From Cohaesibacter intestini (GTDB taxonomy: Bacteria; Pseudomonadota; Alphaproteobacteria; Rhizobiales; Cohaesibacteraceae), in the NCBI RefSeq assembly GCF_003324485.1, contig NZ_QODK01000003.1, forward strand, positions 248,001-312,000: a stretch of DNA of 64,000 nt. The letters are read 5' to 3'. Shown here piece by piece: positions 20,543-29,508 of this stretch. The notes beneath the pieces were generated by a model, which saw only the letters and a list, made by a program, of their open reading frames with translations, was not told where the DNA came from and ran no database searches. A program made the translations under genes and the position numbers. The first letter of the stretch is position 1. The number at the start of each line of letters is the position of its first letter.

Positions 20543-22627
20543 CTATACAGCGACCATGGTTTCTGTTTCACGAGGCGGGAAGGCGACAATCGGCGAGACA
20601 GACGTCTCGCTTGGCCGGCTCTCATGGCTGCGCAGCGAACTGATCAGGTAATCATGCAGCGGATTGGTCGGCATCGGATTGACCAGAGCGCGGGGCAGGA
20701 TTGTCGGGCTCTTGGCAATGCCGCGTTTGAGCAGATCGTCGATCCGGTCATAGGTGGCGAAGGATCCCTTGCCGATCAGCAATGGTTCCCAACTCTTGCC
20801 AGATCGTGCATGGGCAGCAGCCTTGGCTAGTCCGCGCAAATAGACAAAGTCCTTGGTAAAACCACCTCCACGGAAAACCCGCACAGCGACCATAAAGGCC
20901 TGCTCCGGCTTGGCACCGTGATCCTCGGTCAGACATTGCCATGTGCGCACGAAGCTGTAACCATCCAGCAGGCAGCGCACGGCAATCACCCTGAGGGCAA
21001 GGGTTTTTAGCCGCATCATGGTCAGGTTGCCCGAGAGATACTCCACCAAAACCGCAAGACCTTCCTGCGCTTCGGTCGAGCCGGACATGCCCAGTCGGAA
21101 CAGCTCAAGCGGTTGACGACGGGCAATCGCTGCGGTGACCAGATGCAACCCCACCTCATGGTGACACAGGGCACGGGCCGCCCGCTCCGACGATGTGTGG
21201 CCCTTGCGCACCAACACCCGATAGCGATTATTCTCAACCATCGCCCCGGCGATGATCCGGTTGGACAACAGCACCTTGGCGTCAAGTTGGTAATAGTCTA
21301 CCTCATCCTGAATCATCGCCAGGATCTGATGGTCATTCAATTGTCGACCTTTCACTCTTTCTGCATCGGGGATCGCTGCGTGAATGAGAAAGCCTGCATT
21401 GGCCATGTCGAACCGGTCCGGCTCGCCATAATAGCGCAAGGAATTATACAGGCAGTCCTTGCTGCCAATCACCGACATCAGGTCGACCTTCATGCTCAGG
21501 CTGTTGATGGCATGACGATAAAGGCTCTGCAGGGTTGGGTCTTCAATCTCCTCGAACGGCAGACGAAAGAGCTGTTCCTTGACCAGAAACGGGTCGATAT
21601 CCAGATGCCGATAGCGGAACTGCGGTTCATAATGACCTTTGCGAGCGAAGAATTTCTTCCGCTCGCTGTCCAGATTGACCGGGTTGATATAGAGCAGCGG
21701 ATCCAGATTGCCTGCGATCCGGTAAAGTGTCTTGTCCAGCTCCCGCACCCGCTTTGACAGGCCGTTGGCCAAAAGCTCGTGGCGTAGGAACTGGCGGATT
21801 TTCGACCGCTTGTTCGCCGCATAGGCAGCGTGCGACGTGATCGAACGGGTCAGCTCCTCCTTCAATGCTTGCACCATCACCGGCCAGGCAGCACCGCTTT
21901 TCTCGTCGCAGAAGAATTTGCGCACTTCCAGCGGTACACACAGCACCAGATTGGAATGGGCTCGGCAGAAGCTGGCGAGATAGCCGCGCCCCTCAAACAC
22001 TTCATCAATGCCAACCCGGATCGGTTCGGTTCCGACTTCACTCTTTTCGAGTTGGCGCGCCAGATACTGGATCGATGCCCGATGCCGCCGCATGTCGACC
22101 TGAGCGGTGCCAATATTGAAGGCTGGCGCAGCAGAACCGCCCCGCCGTTCGCCATTATAGGAATGGAGATCATAGACGACACAGCCCCCATGACGCCGCG
22201 AAAGCGCGGACAAGACCGCTGCCACCATGTCATAAAAGCGGGTATGCTTGGCAAGCGAACGCTCGACCAAAACGTCCGGCAGGCTGTCCTTCCAGACCAC
22301 CTTGCCCCAAGCCGTGCCATAAATGGCCTGATCGGGCGCGCGGTTGAGGTCATATTCATAGCGGCTGTCGAGCCCGACAATCCGTGTCGGCAAGGCCGAA
22401 ATCAGCTCTGCCGTGTGCGGGTCCTCTTCATAAATCCGCTCTGCTTCGTCCAGATTGCAATGGGCTTCCAGATCCGCAGAAAAGCTGTGACCATCATGGA
22501 TGGCGGTGCAGAGATACGGCATCGATGGGTCGAAATGCAGCTCGAAGCAGCCCTCCTGCTCCCGTGCCTGAAAGGGGTCCCCCGCCTCGATTTTGGCGAG
22601 GATCGCATCAAGACTCAGTGACTGCAT
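20543..22627 (-). CDS. N-formylglutamate amidohydrolase::DUF1704 (QEGLA, MATCAP-like) metallopeptidase fusion
   Basis: 694 residues, two enzymes in one chain. The N-terminal half (about 1-270) resembles N-formylglutamate amidohydrolases, with the zinc motif region YDLHSYN at 152-158. The C-terminal half (about 290-640) is a DUF1704 domain: HEVGLH at 490-495 (HExxxH zinc motif) and EAQEGLA at 519-525, the motif that gives the family the name flavohaemoglobin-expression-modulating QEGLA protein. DUF1704 is also the domain of the eukaryotic tubulin carboxypeptidase MATCAP. Its start overlaps the upstream ATP-grasp gene by 20 bases, so the two are translationally coupled. No signal peptide, so cytosolic. 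The natural substrate is unknown; a carboxypeptidase/amidohydrolase acting on an amide-linked tail is the inference. Confidence 0.8.
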   Translation of the reverse strand: MQSLSLDAILAKIEAGDPFQAREQEGCFELHFDPSMPYLCTAIHDGHSFSADLEAHCNLDEAERIYEEDPHTAELISALPTRIVGLDSRYEYDLNRAPDQAIYGTAWGKVVWKDSLPDVLVERSLAKHTRFYDMVAAVLSALSRRHGGCVVYDLHSYNGERRGGSAAPAFNIGTAQVDMRRHRASIQYLARQLEKSEVGTEPIRVGIDEVFEGRGYLASFCRAHSNLVLCVPLEVRKFFCDEKSGAAWPVMVQALKEELTRSITSHAAYAANKRSKIRQFLRHELLANGLSKRVRELDKTLYRIAGNLDPLLYINPVNLDSERKKFFARKGHYEPQFRYRHLDIDPFLVKEQLFRLPFEEIEDPTLQSLYRHAINSLSMKVDLMSVIGSKDCLYNSLRYYGEPDRFDMANAGFLIHAAIPDAERVKGRQLNDHQILAMIQDEVDYYQLDAKVLLSNRIIAGAMVENNRYRVLVRKGHTSSERAARALCHHEVGLHLVTAAIARRQPLELFRLGMSGSTEAQEGLAVLVEYLSGNLTMMRLKTLALRVIAVRCLLDGYSFVRTWQCLTEDHGAKPEQAFMVAVRVFRGGGFTKDFVYLRGLAKAAAHARSGKSWEPLLIGKGSFATYDRIDDLLKRGIAKSPTILPRALVNPMPTNPLHDYLISSLRSHESRPSETSVSPIVAFPPRETETMVAV

Positions 22628-23642
22628 CTTCGATCAACCTTTGATATTGCGAGCGGCGCGCCATCAGGACTTCCCGCGTGGCGATGACCGATTCCACGAA
22701 ATCGATGACTTTGACCTGCAAGCGCGTGCGATTCAGCTTGTTGATGCGGACGATGCCGCCCGGACTGAGGACATTCACCTCGATCAGCTTGCCGCCGATA
22801 ATGTCGAGCCCGACAAAGAACAGCCCGTCCCGCACGAGCTTGTGCCCGATATGCTTGCAAAGCGCCTTTTCTTCCTTGTTCAGAACATGTTTGACCGCTT
22901 TGCCACCCTGATGAATGTTGGAACGCAGGTCCCCGTCTGCGGGCACGCGGCGCATGGCGCCAATCGGCTCACCATTCAGCATCATCACCCGGACGTCCCC
23001 CTGTTCGGCTCCGGGGACGAATTCCTGCAGGATCACATATTGATCATTGCTGGCACCAAGATAGAAATCGAGCAGCGAGCGGAAGCTGGCGCGTGATCCT
23101 TTCTCGACAATGATCACCCCTTGACCGCCATAGCCGCGCAAGGGCTTGAGGATCATCCTGTCCCCTTCGGATTCCGCCAGCACGCGCTCCAGATAGTCCC
23201 TGTTCTTGGACACATGGGTGACGGGGACGAAATTGTTCGCCGGATCATAGAGTGAAGCGGTGTAGATCTTGCTGCTCGCCAGTCGCAAGCCGTTGACATC
23301 ATTGCAGATAAAGACATCCTCCTTGACTGCGTCAAGGAAGTTCAGCACCGTCGGATCAAGCGGTGGATTGGCGCGCATGAAGATGGTGTCAAAGCCTGCC
23401 AGTGGCAGCATTTTCTTGGTCAGAACAGCTTGTTTGTAGAAATGCACCGCAGTTTTCGGGGTGCCGTTGCAGCGGATCACCTGACAAAAGCCATAGGCTT
23501 CGGTATCGCGCAGCGTCAGGCTGGTCTGGGTCGCCATTGTCACGATATGGCCGCGCTGCCACGCCTCGAAAATCAGGCGAAGAGTCGTGTCCGTTTCCGG
23601 CTCGATCTGCTCCCACGGATACATGAGAAAGCAGATTTTCAT
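22608..23642 (-). CDS. ATP-grasp ligase (glutathione synthetase-like)
   Basis: 344 residues from ATG 23642 (MKICFLMYP), preferred to the longer frame from 23711. The glycine-rich ATP-binding loop KPLRGYGGQGVIIVEKG (about residues 171-187), the LQEFVPG clamp and the C-terminal metal-ligand block LDIIGGKLIEVNVLSPGG are those of GshB-type ATP-grasp ligases. No glutamate-cysteine ligase is nearby, so genuine glutathione synthesis is not supported by context; the enzyme more likely joins an amino acid or peptide to a carboxylate acted on by the fused amidohydrolase/peptidase encoded next. First gene of the pair. Confidence 0.8.
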   Translation of the reverse strand: MKICFLMYPWEQIEPETDTTLRLIFEAWQRGHIVTMATQTSLTLRDTEAYGFCQVIRCNGTPKTAVHFYKQAVLTKKMLPLAGFDTIFMRANPPLDPTVLNFLDAVKEDVFICNDVNGLRLASSKIYTASLYDPANNFVPVTHVSKNRDYLERVLAESEGDRMILKPLRGYGGQGVIIVEKGSRASFRSLLDFYLGASNDQYVILQEFVPGAEQGDVRVMMLNGEPIGAMRRVPADGDLRSNIHQGGKAVKHVLNKEEKALCKHIGHKLVRDGLFFVGLDIIGGKLIEVNVLSPGGIVRINKLNRTRLQVKVIDFVESVIATREVLMARRSQYQRLIEDAVTES

Positions 23643-26316: not shown

Positions 26317-27066
26317 TCAAATGTGTTTGGAGGTGGTAGAAGCGGTTGGTGCTGCTCTGCCATGGCGCACCAGTGCTTGCAGCAGAAATCCGATGAACAG
26401 GCCATTGAGGCTGTGCCATAGAAAGTGCGTCCCAAGAGGAAGCGCATCACAGACCATCATGTCAATGGTCCGGAAGAAAATAGAGGTGGTGAAAGTCACC
26501 GCAGCGGCCAAAATCCAACCCATGGCCGGGTGACGCCGGATCAGCATAACCAGTGCAAAACCGTAAAGGGCGATCATCCCCGGCAGATATTGCGTTGAAC
26601 CATTCAGCCCGTCGCTGCTGGCCTCGGTCCCGTCGGATGCCAGCAGAACCGTGGAAACCAGCCAGAGGGTCGCGGCAATGGACACAAGTGTGATTCCATA
26701 AACCCGAACCGCCCGCCAAAACGGCAATCCGACAATCCGGTACATCGACAAAAACAGATAATAAGCAACGAAAGTCCAGATCGGGATCACATCGGCAAGG
26801 GACGACCAGACCGTGGCGTGGGTGTGGAACAGATAGGAGCCAATGCCGATCAGACCTGCCATGACAATTGCAACCAGAACAAGCATGTCCGGACCGCCGG
26901 TTGGGCCTTGTTCAGCCTTGATCTTGCGATAGGTCCAATAGGCCCACAGCGCAGCAAGGACAAAGGACAGATTGGTCAGGGCATTGATCGGCTCTGACCA
27001 ATAGCTCGCATCGGTGCGTTCGCAATAGATGTCGACAGAACTGAGCATATTCATGGGGATGTCCAA
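26317..27066 (-). CDS. Ceramidase-like (CREST superfamily) membrane protein
   Basis: 249 residues (a second Met at residue 5 or 7 is an alternative start), seven membrane segments. Three blocks match alkaline-ceramidase family proteins: YCERTDASYWSEPINALTN near residue 14, GSYLFHTHATVWSSLADVIP near residue 77, and GTHFLWHSLNG near residue 216. The conserved Ser/His/Asp/His residues are those that coordinate zinc in eukaryotic alkaline ceramidases. Likely an amidohydrolase acting on a lipid in the inner membrane; true ceramide substrate is not established in bacteria. Promoter region contains a CtrA-type box 33 bases upstream. Confidence 0.8.
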   Translation of the reverse strand: MDIPMNMLSSVDIYCERTDASYWSEPINALTNLSFVLAALWAYWTYRKIKAEQGPTGGPDMLVLVAIVMAGLIGIGSYLFHTHATVWSSLADVIPIWTFVAYYLFLSMYRIVGLPFWRAVRVYGITLVSIAATLWLVSTVLLASDGTEASSDGLNGSTQYLPGMIALYGFALVMLIRRHPAMGWILAAAVTFTTSIFFRTIDMMVCDALPLGTHFLWHSLNGLFIGFLLQALVRHGRAAPTASTTSKHI

Positions 27067-28024: not shown

Positions 28025-28594
28025 TTAGCCTTTTCCGAACAGTTTGGCAGGAGCCAGCGCTGCAATGGCAATGAAGGCAATGCCAAGTCCAATGCCGATC
28101 ACTTCACCCGACAAGCCGCCAATCAGGAATGGATAGTCGGTGTCCGTCACCATCCCCAACGTGGCCTTGCCGCCTGCAATTTTGTCCAGCAGGCCCGTGG
28201 CTTTGACGCCGCTATAGGCCAGCATATAGGCCGCTGCACCAAACAGGCCGCCAAGCACGAAGAACAGCGCGTCCTTGCGCCCGGTTGCGGCCGCGGTGAC
28301 GCTGGTGCCCGGACAATAGCCTGCAATCGCAAAGCCTGCCCCAAGCAGCAAGCCGCCAACAAACACCCCGCTATAGGCATCCTTGACCGATAGGTGACCG
28401 GGATCGACCAGACCTGCCAGAATGCCGGCAAACATCAGCACCGACGATGTGCCGATTGCCAGCATGATCGTTTTGAGCAAATGCAGGTTCGACAGGTTGA
28501 GCATGCGAATGATATAGCCCGGATTGGTCGCGCCGATCCGGTCAAGGGTGAAGCCAAACAAGCCGCCAATGACGAGTGCGAGGAAAATGGCCAT
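28025..28594 (-). CDS. YeeE/YedE family sulfur-compound transporter, second subunit
   Basis: 189 residues, about four to five membrane segments. GYCPGTSV near residue 93 contains the conserved Cys proposed to bind sulfur compounds in YeeE/PmpB proteins. Works with the protein encoded three bases upstream (28598-29158). By family, moves reduced sulfur such as thiosulfate or sulfane sulfur into the cytosol. No persulfide dioxygenase or BigR regulator is adjacent, unlike many such operons. Confidence 0.8.
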   Translation of the reverse strand: MAIFLALVIGGLFGFTLDRIGATNPGYIIRMLNLSNLHLLKTIMLAIGTSSVLMFAGILAGLVDPGHLSVKDAYSGVFVGGLLLGAGFAIAGYCPGTSVTAAATGRKDALFFVLGGLFGAAAYMLAYSGVKATGLLDKIAGGKATLGMVTDTDYPFLIGGLSGEVIGIGLGIAFIAIAALAPAKLFGKG

Positions 28595-28597
28595 GGA

Positions 28598-29158
28598 TCA
28601 GTTCCCCTTTTTAAAGACGAAGAGAGCAATCGGGAAGGCGGCAAGAAAAGCACCCGCGGTGAAAATATAGCCCGACAGAGCGGTCTGCATCATGCCGCTC
28701 ATCATGTGTCCCGACGTACAGCCGCCAGCCAGACGCGCCCCAAACAGCACCAGAAAACCGGCAATGAAGGCCCAGACATAGCGTTTGGTGGTCGATGAGC
28801 CGAAATTCTCCCGCCAGACTTCTGGCATTTCCCGCTCCTCAGCCGACACGCCGCCACGAAGGAATGCGGACAGAGCGGCGCCACCAACCATCGCCAGAAC
28901 GAATATGAAGCTGTAATTCATCGGTTCGGCGACATTCTTGGCATATTTGCCGCCGCTCTTGTTCAAATAGGCGTTCGGGCTCGCATAGCCGCTCTTGGCG
29001 GTTTCATCGACCACCACAATTGCCGGATTGACGGCATCCCACAAGATGCCATCAAGGATGACGAACTGTGTCGAAACCCCAATGGGCTTGACCAGCAGGA
29101 CCGCGAGAAAGAACACGCCCCCCAGCAAGAGCCCACCCACTTTCCAGTTGAGAACCAT
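28598..29158 (-). CDS. YeeE/YedE family sulfur-compound transporter, first subunit
   Basis: 186 residues from ATG 29158, chosen because GGAGGTGTGAG directly precedes it. Membrane protein with an N-terminal segment, an unusual 50-residue soluble loop (about 30-80) and GGCTSGHMMSG near residue 143 with the conserved Cys. Forms a two-protein unit with the downstream gene, matching PmpA/PmpB-type split YeeE/YedE proteins. Confidence 0.8.
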   Translation of the reverse strand: MVLNWKVGGLLLGGVFFLAVLLVKPIGVSTQFVILDGILWDAVNPAIVVVDETAKSGYASPNAYLNKSGGKYAKNVAEPMNYSFIFVLAMVGGAALSAFLRGGVSAEEREMPEVWRENFGSSTTKRYVWAFIAGFLVLFGARLAGGCTSGHMMSGMMQTALSGYIFTAGAFLAAFPIALFVFKKGN

Positions 29159-29508
29159 CTCACACCTCCGAATATTTCTGGCGCCCTTCACCCATCCATA
29201 GAGGAAGACACGCCAAACCAACCTTTGTCAGCGGAGCATCAATAGGCGTCCGTCCGATCTTATTTTAGTATTTTCTACTATTCGAAAATAAAGAATTTAA
29301 CCCTGTTGGCAAGGAGAATATGGTCGCAAGTGCAAAGGAATGGGGAAGAAGCGTGCGAACGTGACAGACTGACCGGAAAGAAAAGGAGCTCAGGGACGCA
29401 AACGCCTAGCTGGGATGCCGTGCGCCGATTGGTCCGTGAGCCCCTATAAAAGAATGGCAACATGATCAACACCAGATTGCTGCCCGTAGGAAATGCGAAA
29501 GAGCGGTG
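29159..29508. other. Promoter region of the sulfur transporter operon
   Basis: 350 bases. An AT-rich inverted repeat, TATTTTC (29269-29275) / GAAAATA (29284-29290), lies about 110 bases upstream of the start and could be an operator. No gene seen. Confidence 0.35.

Follow-up and report, generated by a model that had tools for sequence, protein, structure and literature searches.

The DNA analysed here, which we call the window, is a 64,000-nucleotide stretch of the alphaproteobacterium Cohaesibacter intestini (contig NZ_QODK01000003.1, positions 248,001 to 312,000). It carries on its minus strand a pair of overlapping genes, for a ligase and a two-domain hydrolase, that we discuss as a possible module for adding and removing C-terminal amino acids. 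The first gene of the pair (22608..23642) encodes an ATP-grasp ligase of 344 residues that resembles the glutathione synthetase GshB and belongs, by profile scores and residue comparison, to the NF009110/PRK12458 subfamily. It shares 20 bases (22608..22627) with the second gene (20543..22627), whose 694-residue product unites, judging by Pfam and PDB matches, a domain like N-formylglutamate amidohydrolase (FGase), a linker and a metallopeptidase domain of the MATCAP (DUF1704) family. The FGase-like domain covers residues 8-249 (21881..22606) and conserves the motifs AIHxGH, EEDPxT, SRYEYDLNR and DLHSYN, with YDLHSYN at residues 152-158 (22154..22174) as the presumed metal-site motif. The core of the MATCAP domain spans residues 297-648 (20684..21739) and contains the HExxxH metal site as HEVGLH at residues 490-495 (21143..21160), followed by QEGLA at residues 521-525 (21053..21067), where E522 is the presumed third metal ligand. 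The original prediction, made from the sequence without database searches, had given the same two genes, coordinates, strand and overlap and had quoted YDLHSYN, HEVGLH and QEGLA; on re-reading the sequence we found all of this to be correct.

Both halves of the fusion can be assigned to families. The FGase model PF05013 matches residues 37-237 (E = 3e-20, 73.6 bits against a cut-off of 28.9) and the MATCAP model PF08014 matches residues 324-663 (E = 7e-86, 288.8 bits against a cut-off of 27). The fusion also matches human MATCAP (7z5g), both in a phmmer search of PDB sequences (E = 2.6e-6) and with a profile built from 25 relatives (E = 1.6e-17), so that the kinship with MATCAP has support beyond Pfam. 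The MATCAP part narrowly fails the equivalog model of the classical QEGLA proteins (TIGR02421; 332.1 versus 338.65 bits), and PDB chains gave no match to a profile of the FGase domain down to a limit of E = 1. In nine of nine fused and 12 of 12 split-type MATCAPs (two architectures described below) neither the HExxxH motif nor the distal Glu varies, and R586-G587, K592-D593 and Y596 (window numbering) are likewise invariant in all 21. Loss of the zinc ligands in close homologues had been named as grounds for abandoning the prediction; with the MATCAP ligands intact in 21 of 21 proteins, that objection falls. The FGase motifs are retained in 17 of 19 FGase domains, a count for which all 19 were aligned (alignment A1 holds 17 of them, excluding L046 and L052, and alignment A4 excludes L048). 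Enzymes of the TMCP/MATCAP type cleave Tyr and Glu from C-termini and also trim polyglutamate, according to passages of PMC10499314, and the bacterial MATCAP may be a carboxypeptidase for C-terminal Tyr or Glu too.

The association between ligase and MATCAP extends well beyond this locus. Across 398 genomes drawn from the Pseudomonadota, NF009110 gave 16 matches over its cut-off in 14 genomes (425-488 bits, with the best non-member at 241), and a MATCAP gene adjoins 15 of these 16 ligases; the sixteenth, in genome G494, begins 48 bases from a contig end. MATCAP itself is uncommon, being found in one of 18 genomes of the genus, nine of 385 drawn from the class and 47 of the 398 drawn from the phylum. 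Thirteen of the 14 ligase carriers, which spread over ten families of the sample, are also among the 47 MATCAP carriers (hypergeometric probability 2e-12, a figure inflated by ignoring relatedness). The pairing is beyond chance, and ligase and carboxypeptidase-family enzyme form the conserved unit that had been proposed. In Sinorhizobium meliloti strain ml59 a split form of the module is carried by pSymB (L048:9893-13786), and Sinorhizobium accounts for 79 of the 126 plasmid records that gave a match. One genome of the phylum sample, G498, has three MATCAP-ligase pairs (contigs C16, C47 and C283) besides an additional piece of MATCAP on C132. Scans of viral contigs gave a single contig (L095/L096, IMGVR_UViG_3300031379_000384), towards the end of which both ligase and MATCAP match; it may be DNA of the host. 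We discarded a genomic island as an account of the window locus: GC content between 19 and 26 kb, in 1-kb steps, is an unremarkable 52-58%, though only one of the 18 genomes of the genus has a MATCAP match. A role in anti-phage defence was likewise dropped, neither window protein matching any PADLOC family at E 0.001.

To compare gene arrangements we took 49 loci (the window, L013-L015 and L046-L090) and grouped 48 MATCAPs scoring above 170 bits, one per locus. Note that this set was chosen rather than drawn at random: it holds the long-frame MATCAPs of the class and phylum samples except G498:C47, and the classical QEGLA proteins only in part. L070 and L090 show MATCAP matches as separate pieces only; L090 (two pieces) falls below the 170-bit limit, and L070 (one piece) was classed as 'other' and excluded from the tree. 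The 48 comprise nine fused, 12 split-type, four short, 20 classical QEGLA and three other proteins. At fused loci the ligase gene adjoins MATCAP in eight of nine cases, directly upstream, and overlaps it in seven as the frames are called. Split-type loci have a MATCAP frame of 620-810 residues; in the six of these frames that were scanned, Pfam recognises nothing in the N-terminal part. FGase is encoded separately, no more than 2 kb away, at 10 of the 12 split-type loci, and a ligase gene adjoins MATCAP at 11 of 12. A module ligase adjoins MATCAP at none of the four short, 20 classical QEGLA and three other loci, and neither an FGase nor a ligase partner stands next to any of the four short and 20 classical QEGLA genes. 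At one classical QEGLA locus there is a GshB-like gene on the opposite strand, at a distance of 4.9 kb.

What, then, is the extra N-terminal part of the split-type MATCAPs? It looks like a degenerate FGase-like domain: a profile of it aligns with that of the active FGase at 90.5% probability in hhalign (E = 1.4e-6, 120 columns), compared with 0.1% for the ligase and MATCAP profiles used as controls, and the DxHSYN motif is missing from it in 12 of 12 proteins. One architecture joins FGase to MATCAP by fusion, and in the other an active FGase would pair with the dead FGase-like copy that MATCAP carries, a Rosetta-stone relationship from which we infer that the two hydrolases stay coupled. In the tree the split-type MATCAPs form one group (support 100/100), the fused and short proteins another (98/99) and the QEGLA proteins a third (100/100); the fused group taken alone is weakly supported (66/64). 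The tree sets human MATCAP apart from the module clade, with long branches, and its joining with L015 is a long-branch pair that we did not use.

The ligase passes the NF009110 model (425.5 bits, cut-off 408) and clearly fails the glutathione-synthase equivalog TIGR01380 (224 versus 299.05 bits). We compared 19 module ligases with 14 other GshBs, of which eight exceed the TIGR01380 cut-off, five (L121-L125) are unchecked matches from the NF009110 search and one is the E. coli enzyme. R86, K125, K160, D208, R210, R225, R233, N235, D273, E281 and N283 (E. coli GshB numbering) are common to 19 of 19 module ligases, and the positions that these share with the 14 GshBs include ATP and metal (Mg) sites. 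T288 is Gly in all 19 and Thr in all 14, T285 is never Thr in the module ligases, and D9 is Tyr in eight ligases of fused modules and Asn in 10 of 11 of split ones, with one gap. A RimK-like RSNxH loop was rejected as a diagnostic for the ligase, RSN being present also in the canonical GshB of the same genome and the module sequences being variable there. One explanation of the module consistent with these likenesses is that it handles a small peptide akin to glutathione: the ligase would couple an amino acid to gamma-Glu-Cys or to a different gamma-glutamyl peptide, and the hydrolases would recycle or edit the product, which might be a non-glycine thiol or part of glutathione turnover in low salt. 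Among solved structures E. coli GshB (1gsa, E = 3e-32) comes closest to the ligase, and 11 GshB positions are common to all 19 ligases; both points fit such a role, while the replacement of T288 by Gly (19 of 19) and of D9 by Tyr or Asn (18 of 19, one gap) argues the other way.

The gene content of the carriers bears on the same explanation. The window genome has a canonical GshB on contig 1 (TIGR01380, 419.6 bits) and a glutamate-cysteine ligase on contig 3 (TIGR01436, 647 bits against a cut-off of 463). It also has a HutG-like FGase (228 bits) elsewhere, next to a gene for an aromatic amino acid lyase (PF00221, 503.6 bits), as expected for a hutG-hutH arrangement; no histidine or aromatic lyase gene lies near the fusion among the window neighbours scanned. 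With glutathione synthesis covered elsewhere in this genome, and a hutG-hutH-like FGase as well, the inherited glutathione and histidine annotations of the pair fit poorly there, as had been supposed. Over the whole sample a canonical GshB exceeds the cut-off in eight of 14 module genomes, the window genome included, which again speaks against a glutathione-like product. The remaining six carriers, two of whose genomes are only 65% and 82% complete, have no match over cut-off to the eukaryote-type synthetase (PF03917) and yet have a PF04107 match in every case, with a true glutamate-cysteine ligase (TIGR01436) in the five scanned; this favours the small-peptide explanation. That a missing GshB would prove glutathione synthesis by the module, however, is an idea that failed its control. 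Among 27 genomes with no or weak GshB-like match, picked by NF009110 matches rather than by a TIGR01380 search, 20 have TIGR01436 (one of them, G412, shares its genus with the module-bearing G406). Lack of GshB is thus usual in such genomes with or without the module and no sign that the module makes glutathione. Overall, we consider a small-peptide role possible but rather doubtful.

There is a published hint as to when such a module might be used. In an RNA-seq comparison of Photobacterium damselae in 1% versus 3% NaCl, according to the part of PMC10308900 that covers these genes, A0J47_RS17020 ('glutathione synthase GshB') is up 38.4-fold, A0J47_RS17025 ('QEGLA motif protein') 27.5-fold and RimK 52.2-fold. 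The first two have consecutive locus tags on chromosome II, and the authors treat the pair as glutathione synthetase. Going by these names and tags, the two genes are presumably the ligase/MATCAP module; in Photobacterium sp. DA100 (L047), whose record is unannotated at this place, the called frames of ligase and fusion are adjacent and overlapping. The set is accessory and, in at least one relative, probably part of a response to low osmolarity. RimK, for its part, adds glutamates to ribosomal protein S6 (RpsF), from which RimB takes them off, and also makes free poly-alpha-glutamate under stimulation by RimB, as described in passages of PMC11957791. Hypo-osmotic tolerance is elsewhere governed by Rlo genes, according to an excerpt of PMC12239564.

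These data might suggest that the module serves as an osmotic store, in which glutamate or another amino acid would be condensed into short peptides as salt falls, leaving fewer dissolved particles, and released by the hydrolases as it rises. Induction of the presumed module together with RimK in low salt (PMC10308900, in part) and the free polyglutamate made by RimK and stimulated by RimB (PMC11957791, likewise) are both in keeping with this idea. Ligase and hydrolase, however, both rise in low salt, which without further control would amount to a futile cycle, and the salt data come from P. damselae, not from an alphaproteobacterial carrier. We therefore regard an osmotic store as improbable.

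Having set out these alternatives, we return to the reading that we prefer, tentatively, and doubt a little more than we believe: the gene pair would be a combined writer and eraser of C-terminal amino acids. Its ATP-grasp ligase would activate a carboxylate with ATP and join an amino acid to it, glutamate being the best guess. The MATCAP domain, as a metallo-carboxypeptidase, would remove residues at a free C-terminus. Members of the FGase family act on N-acyl-glutamate, and the FGase-like domain might hydrolyse the last or acyl-linked amino acid, the residue that MATCAP cannot remove. Fusion would hold the two hydrolases together in one architecture, and in the other the degenerate FGase-like domain on MATCAP might dock the separate FGase. 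The original prediction of a system that adds and removes tails is supported in part: the conserved unit of ligase and carboxypeptidase-family enzyme (15 of 16) and the poor fit of the inherited annotations stand, whereas activities, sequence of reactions, added amino acid, target and docking are inferred. The prediction had overlooked the split architecture with its dead FGase-like domain, the LysR gene close to 10 of 21 modules, the Rlo- and RimK-like neighbours and the salt response already in print.

Several observations count against this reading. Canonical GshB is present in seven of seven genomes with a fused module and in only one of seven other carriers, and since the six carriers without it have glutamate-cysteine ligase, the module ligase could be the glutathione synthetase there. 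The window ligase itself scores 268 bits with GshB models versus 80 with RimK. FGase motifs are lost in two of 19 domains (in L046, from Vibrio HDW18, the His of DxHS is gone; in L052 most motifs are), and we found no ligase close to MATCAP at either L046 or L057, which means that the module can at times do without one of its parts. At L057 (8158-11110) a split-type MATCAP with a dead FGase-like domain overlaps a gene of the AspA/AstE family, and neither a module ligase nor an FGase was found in the stretch. FGase and AspA/AstE proteins share the M14 carboxypeptidase fold; the profile of this AspA/AstE-family partner showed no similarity to that of the FGase domain. A structure predicted for the fusion from an alignment of the window protein with L013-L015 was unusable (predicted local distance difference test, pLDDT, 41; predicted template-modelling score, pTM, 0.31). 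Finally, the identification of the P. damselae pair comes from names and tags rather than sequence, and the Rlo- and RimK-like neighbours considered next are few, two of them (L061 and G494) being from one genus.

These neighbours place MATCAP beside other ATP-grasp ligases. In a Pacebacteria locus (L015:3629-6898) an RloB-like seven-transmembrane protein, an RloC-like ATP-grasp ligase and MATCAP form one overlapping run, the first two scoring below their NCBIfam cut-offs. At L061 an Rlo-like run of retropepsin, seven-transmembrane inactive transglutaminase and ligase, of which only the ligase exceeds its cut-off, lies directly downstream of the module ligase, and the same run occurs in G494 (L061:4765-7777 and L113:1123-4000; two genomes, one genus). 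L062 has short pieces of the same Rlo-like sequence clusters in the same place. At L052 a RimK-family ligase (TIGR00768, 226.9 bits against a cut-off of 143.4) is divergent to the module. Keeping in mind that these cases are few and partly related, they would all point the same way as the writer/eraser reading.

Other neighbours recur as well. At 10 of 21 module loci, the window's not among them, MATCAP has a LysR-type gene at a distance of up to 6 kb, which is upstream and divergent in nine cases; the corresponding counts are 0 of 20 for QEGLA, 0 of four for short loci and one of three for the others (L070, with LysR genes). Those pairs of the LysR proteins that exceed 32% identity reach 87%. 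A DUF413 (MaoP-family) gene stands just upstream of the module at four of 21 loci (L046, L047, L053 and L056), and the C-terminus of its product is acidic in L046, L047 and L053. Upstream of the window pair, a gap of about 0.5 kb holds no convincing gene, small open reading frames included, and beyond it lies a divergent DUF418 gene. Further along the window, two neighbouring minus-strand genes at 28025-29221 each correspond to a portion of Sulf_transp (PF04143) and seem to make up a sulphur transporter in two parts, and 26317-27066 gives a weak match to the ceramidase family (34.2 bits against a cut-off of 32.5).

The neighbourhood also informs a further alternative, namely a pathway for a secondary metabolite or modified peptide, with a small dedicated precursor as the substrate of ligase, amidohydrolase and peptidase. 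Clusters of that kind often combine peptide ligases with unrelated peptidases. Among the clustered neighbours, for which open reading frames of at least 70 residues were considered and smaller precursors beyond the window pair were not searched for, we saw no precursor, carrier or exporter that appears repeatedly, whereas LysR (10 of 21) and DUF413 (four of 21) do; and no convincing small frame lies just upstream of the window pair. A dedicated precursor is accordingly very unlikely in our estimation.

How does the proposed writer/eraser module compare with known systems? It is like RimK-RimB (RimABK) in setting an ATP-grasp ligase beside a peptidase that undoes its product, and hybrid RimB-RimK enzymes are known, as passages of PMC11957791 relate. 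The eraser there, however, is a retropepsin-like aspartic endopeptidase, whereas the module has a MATCAP metallopeptidase with an FGase-like domain and a GshB-like ligase; Pfam finds no retropepsin-like aspartic protease domain in the two window proteins. RloABC of Pseudomonas likewise couples an ATP-grasp protein and a protease to low osmolarity (PMC12239564, in part), and the L015, L061 and G494 loci bring Rlo-like genes next to MATCAP or the module ligase; the window pair, by contrast, lacks a membrane protein and a secreted retropepsin. Human MATCAP/TMCP1 and TMCP2 (KIAA0895L, KIAA0895) share the Pfam family, the HExxxH motif with distal E and the RG..KD..Y block, but not the bacterial fusion to, or carriage of, an FGase-like domain or the link to a ligase. 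The classical QEGLA proteins (TIGR02421) are of the same family and differ in forming their own tree group (100/100), in lacking the FGase domain, in their HExxVH or HExxIH motifs and in having no adjacent module ligase in 20 loci. Prokaryotic GshB shares fold family and ATP/Mg positions with the module ligase, which differs in falling under the equivalog cut-off, in belonging to a distinct subfamily and in group-specific changes such as T288 to Gly.

Bacterial relatives of the tubulin-trimming enzyme seem hardly studied. DUF1704 reportedly receives a single mention in a paper on a malaria genome. Among the matches listed in open-licence full text we found no paper on the function of these relatives, only the expression table that names a QEGLA protein (PMC10308900). 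The link between ligase and MATCAP may already have been predicted in print.

A bolder version of the writer/eraser reading, which we think unlikely, is that the module is a bacterial equivalent of the tubulin code, in which an ATP-grasp writer and two physically coupled erasers (MATCAP and FGase-like) would resize acidic C-terminal tails of specific proteins with osmolarity; the DUF413 protein encoded upstream at four loci is then a candidate target. If this were true, MATCAP would stand in for the RimB and RloA retropepsins of other systems, and the tubulin-tail enzyme of eukaryotes would have its origin in a bacterial use of this kind. The conserved link to an ATP-grasp ligase in any case supplies a concrete, testable idea of the role of one group of bacterial MATCAPs, with Sinorhizobium meliloti, which has a split module on pSymB, as an example of a tractable carrier; and a 38-fold response to low salt that was published as that of a glutathione synthetase may be something else.

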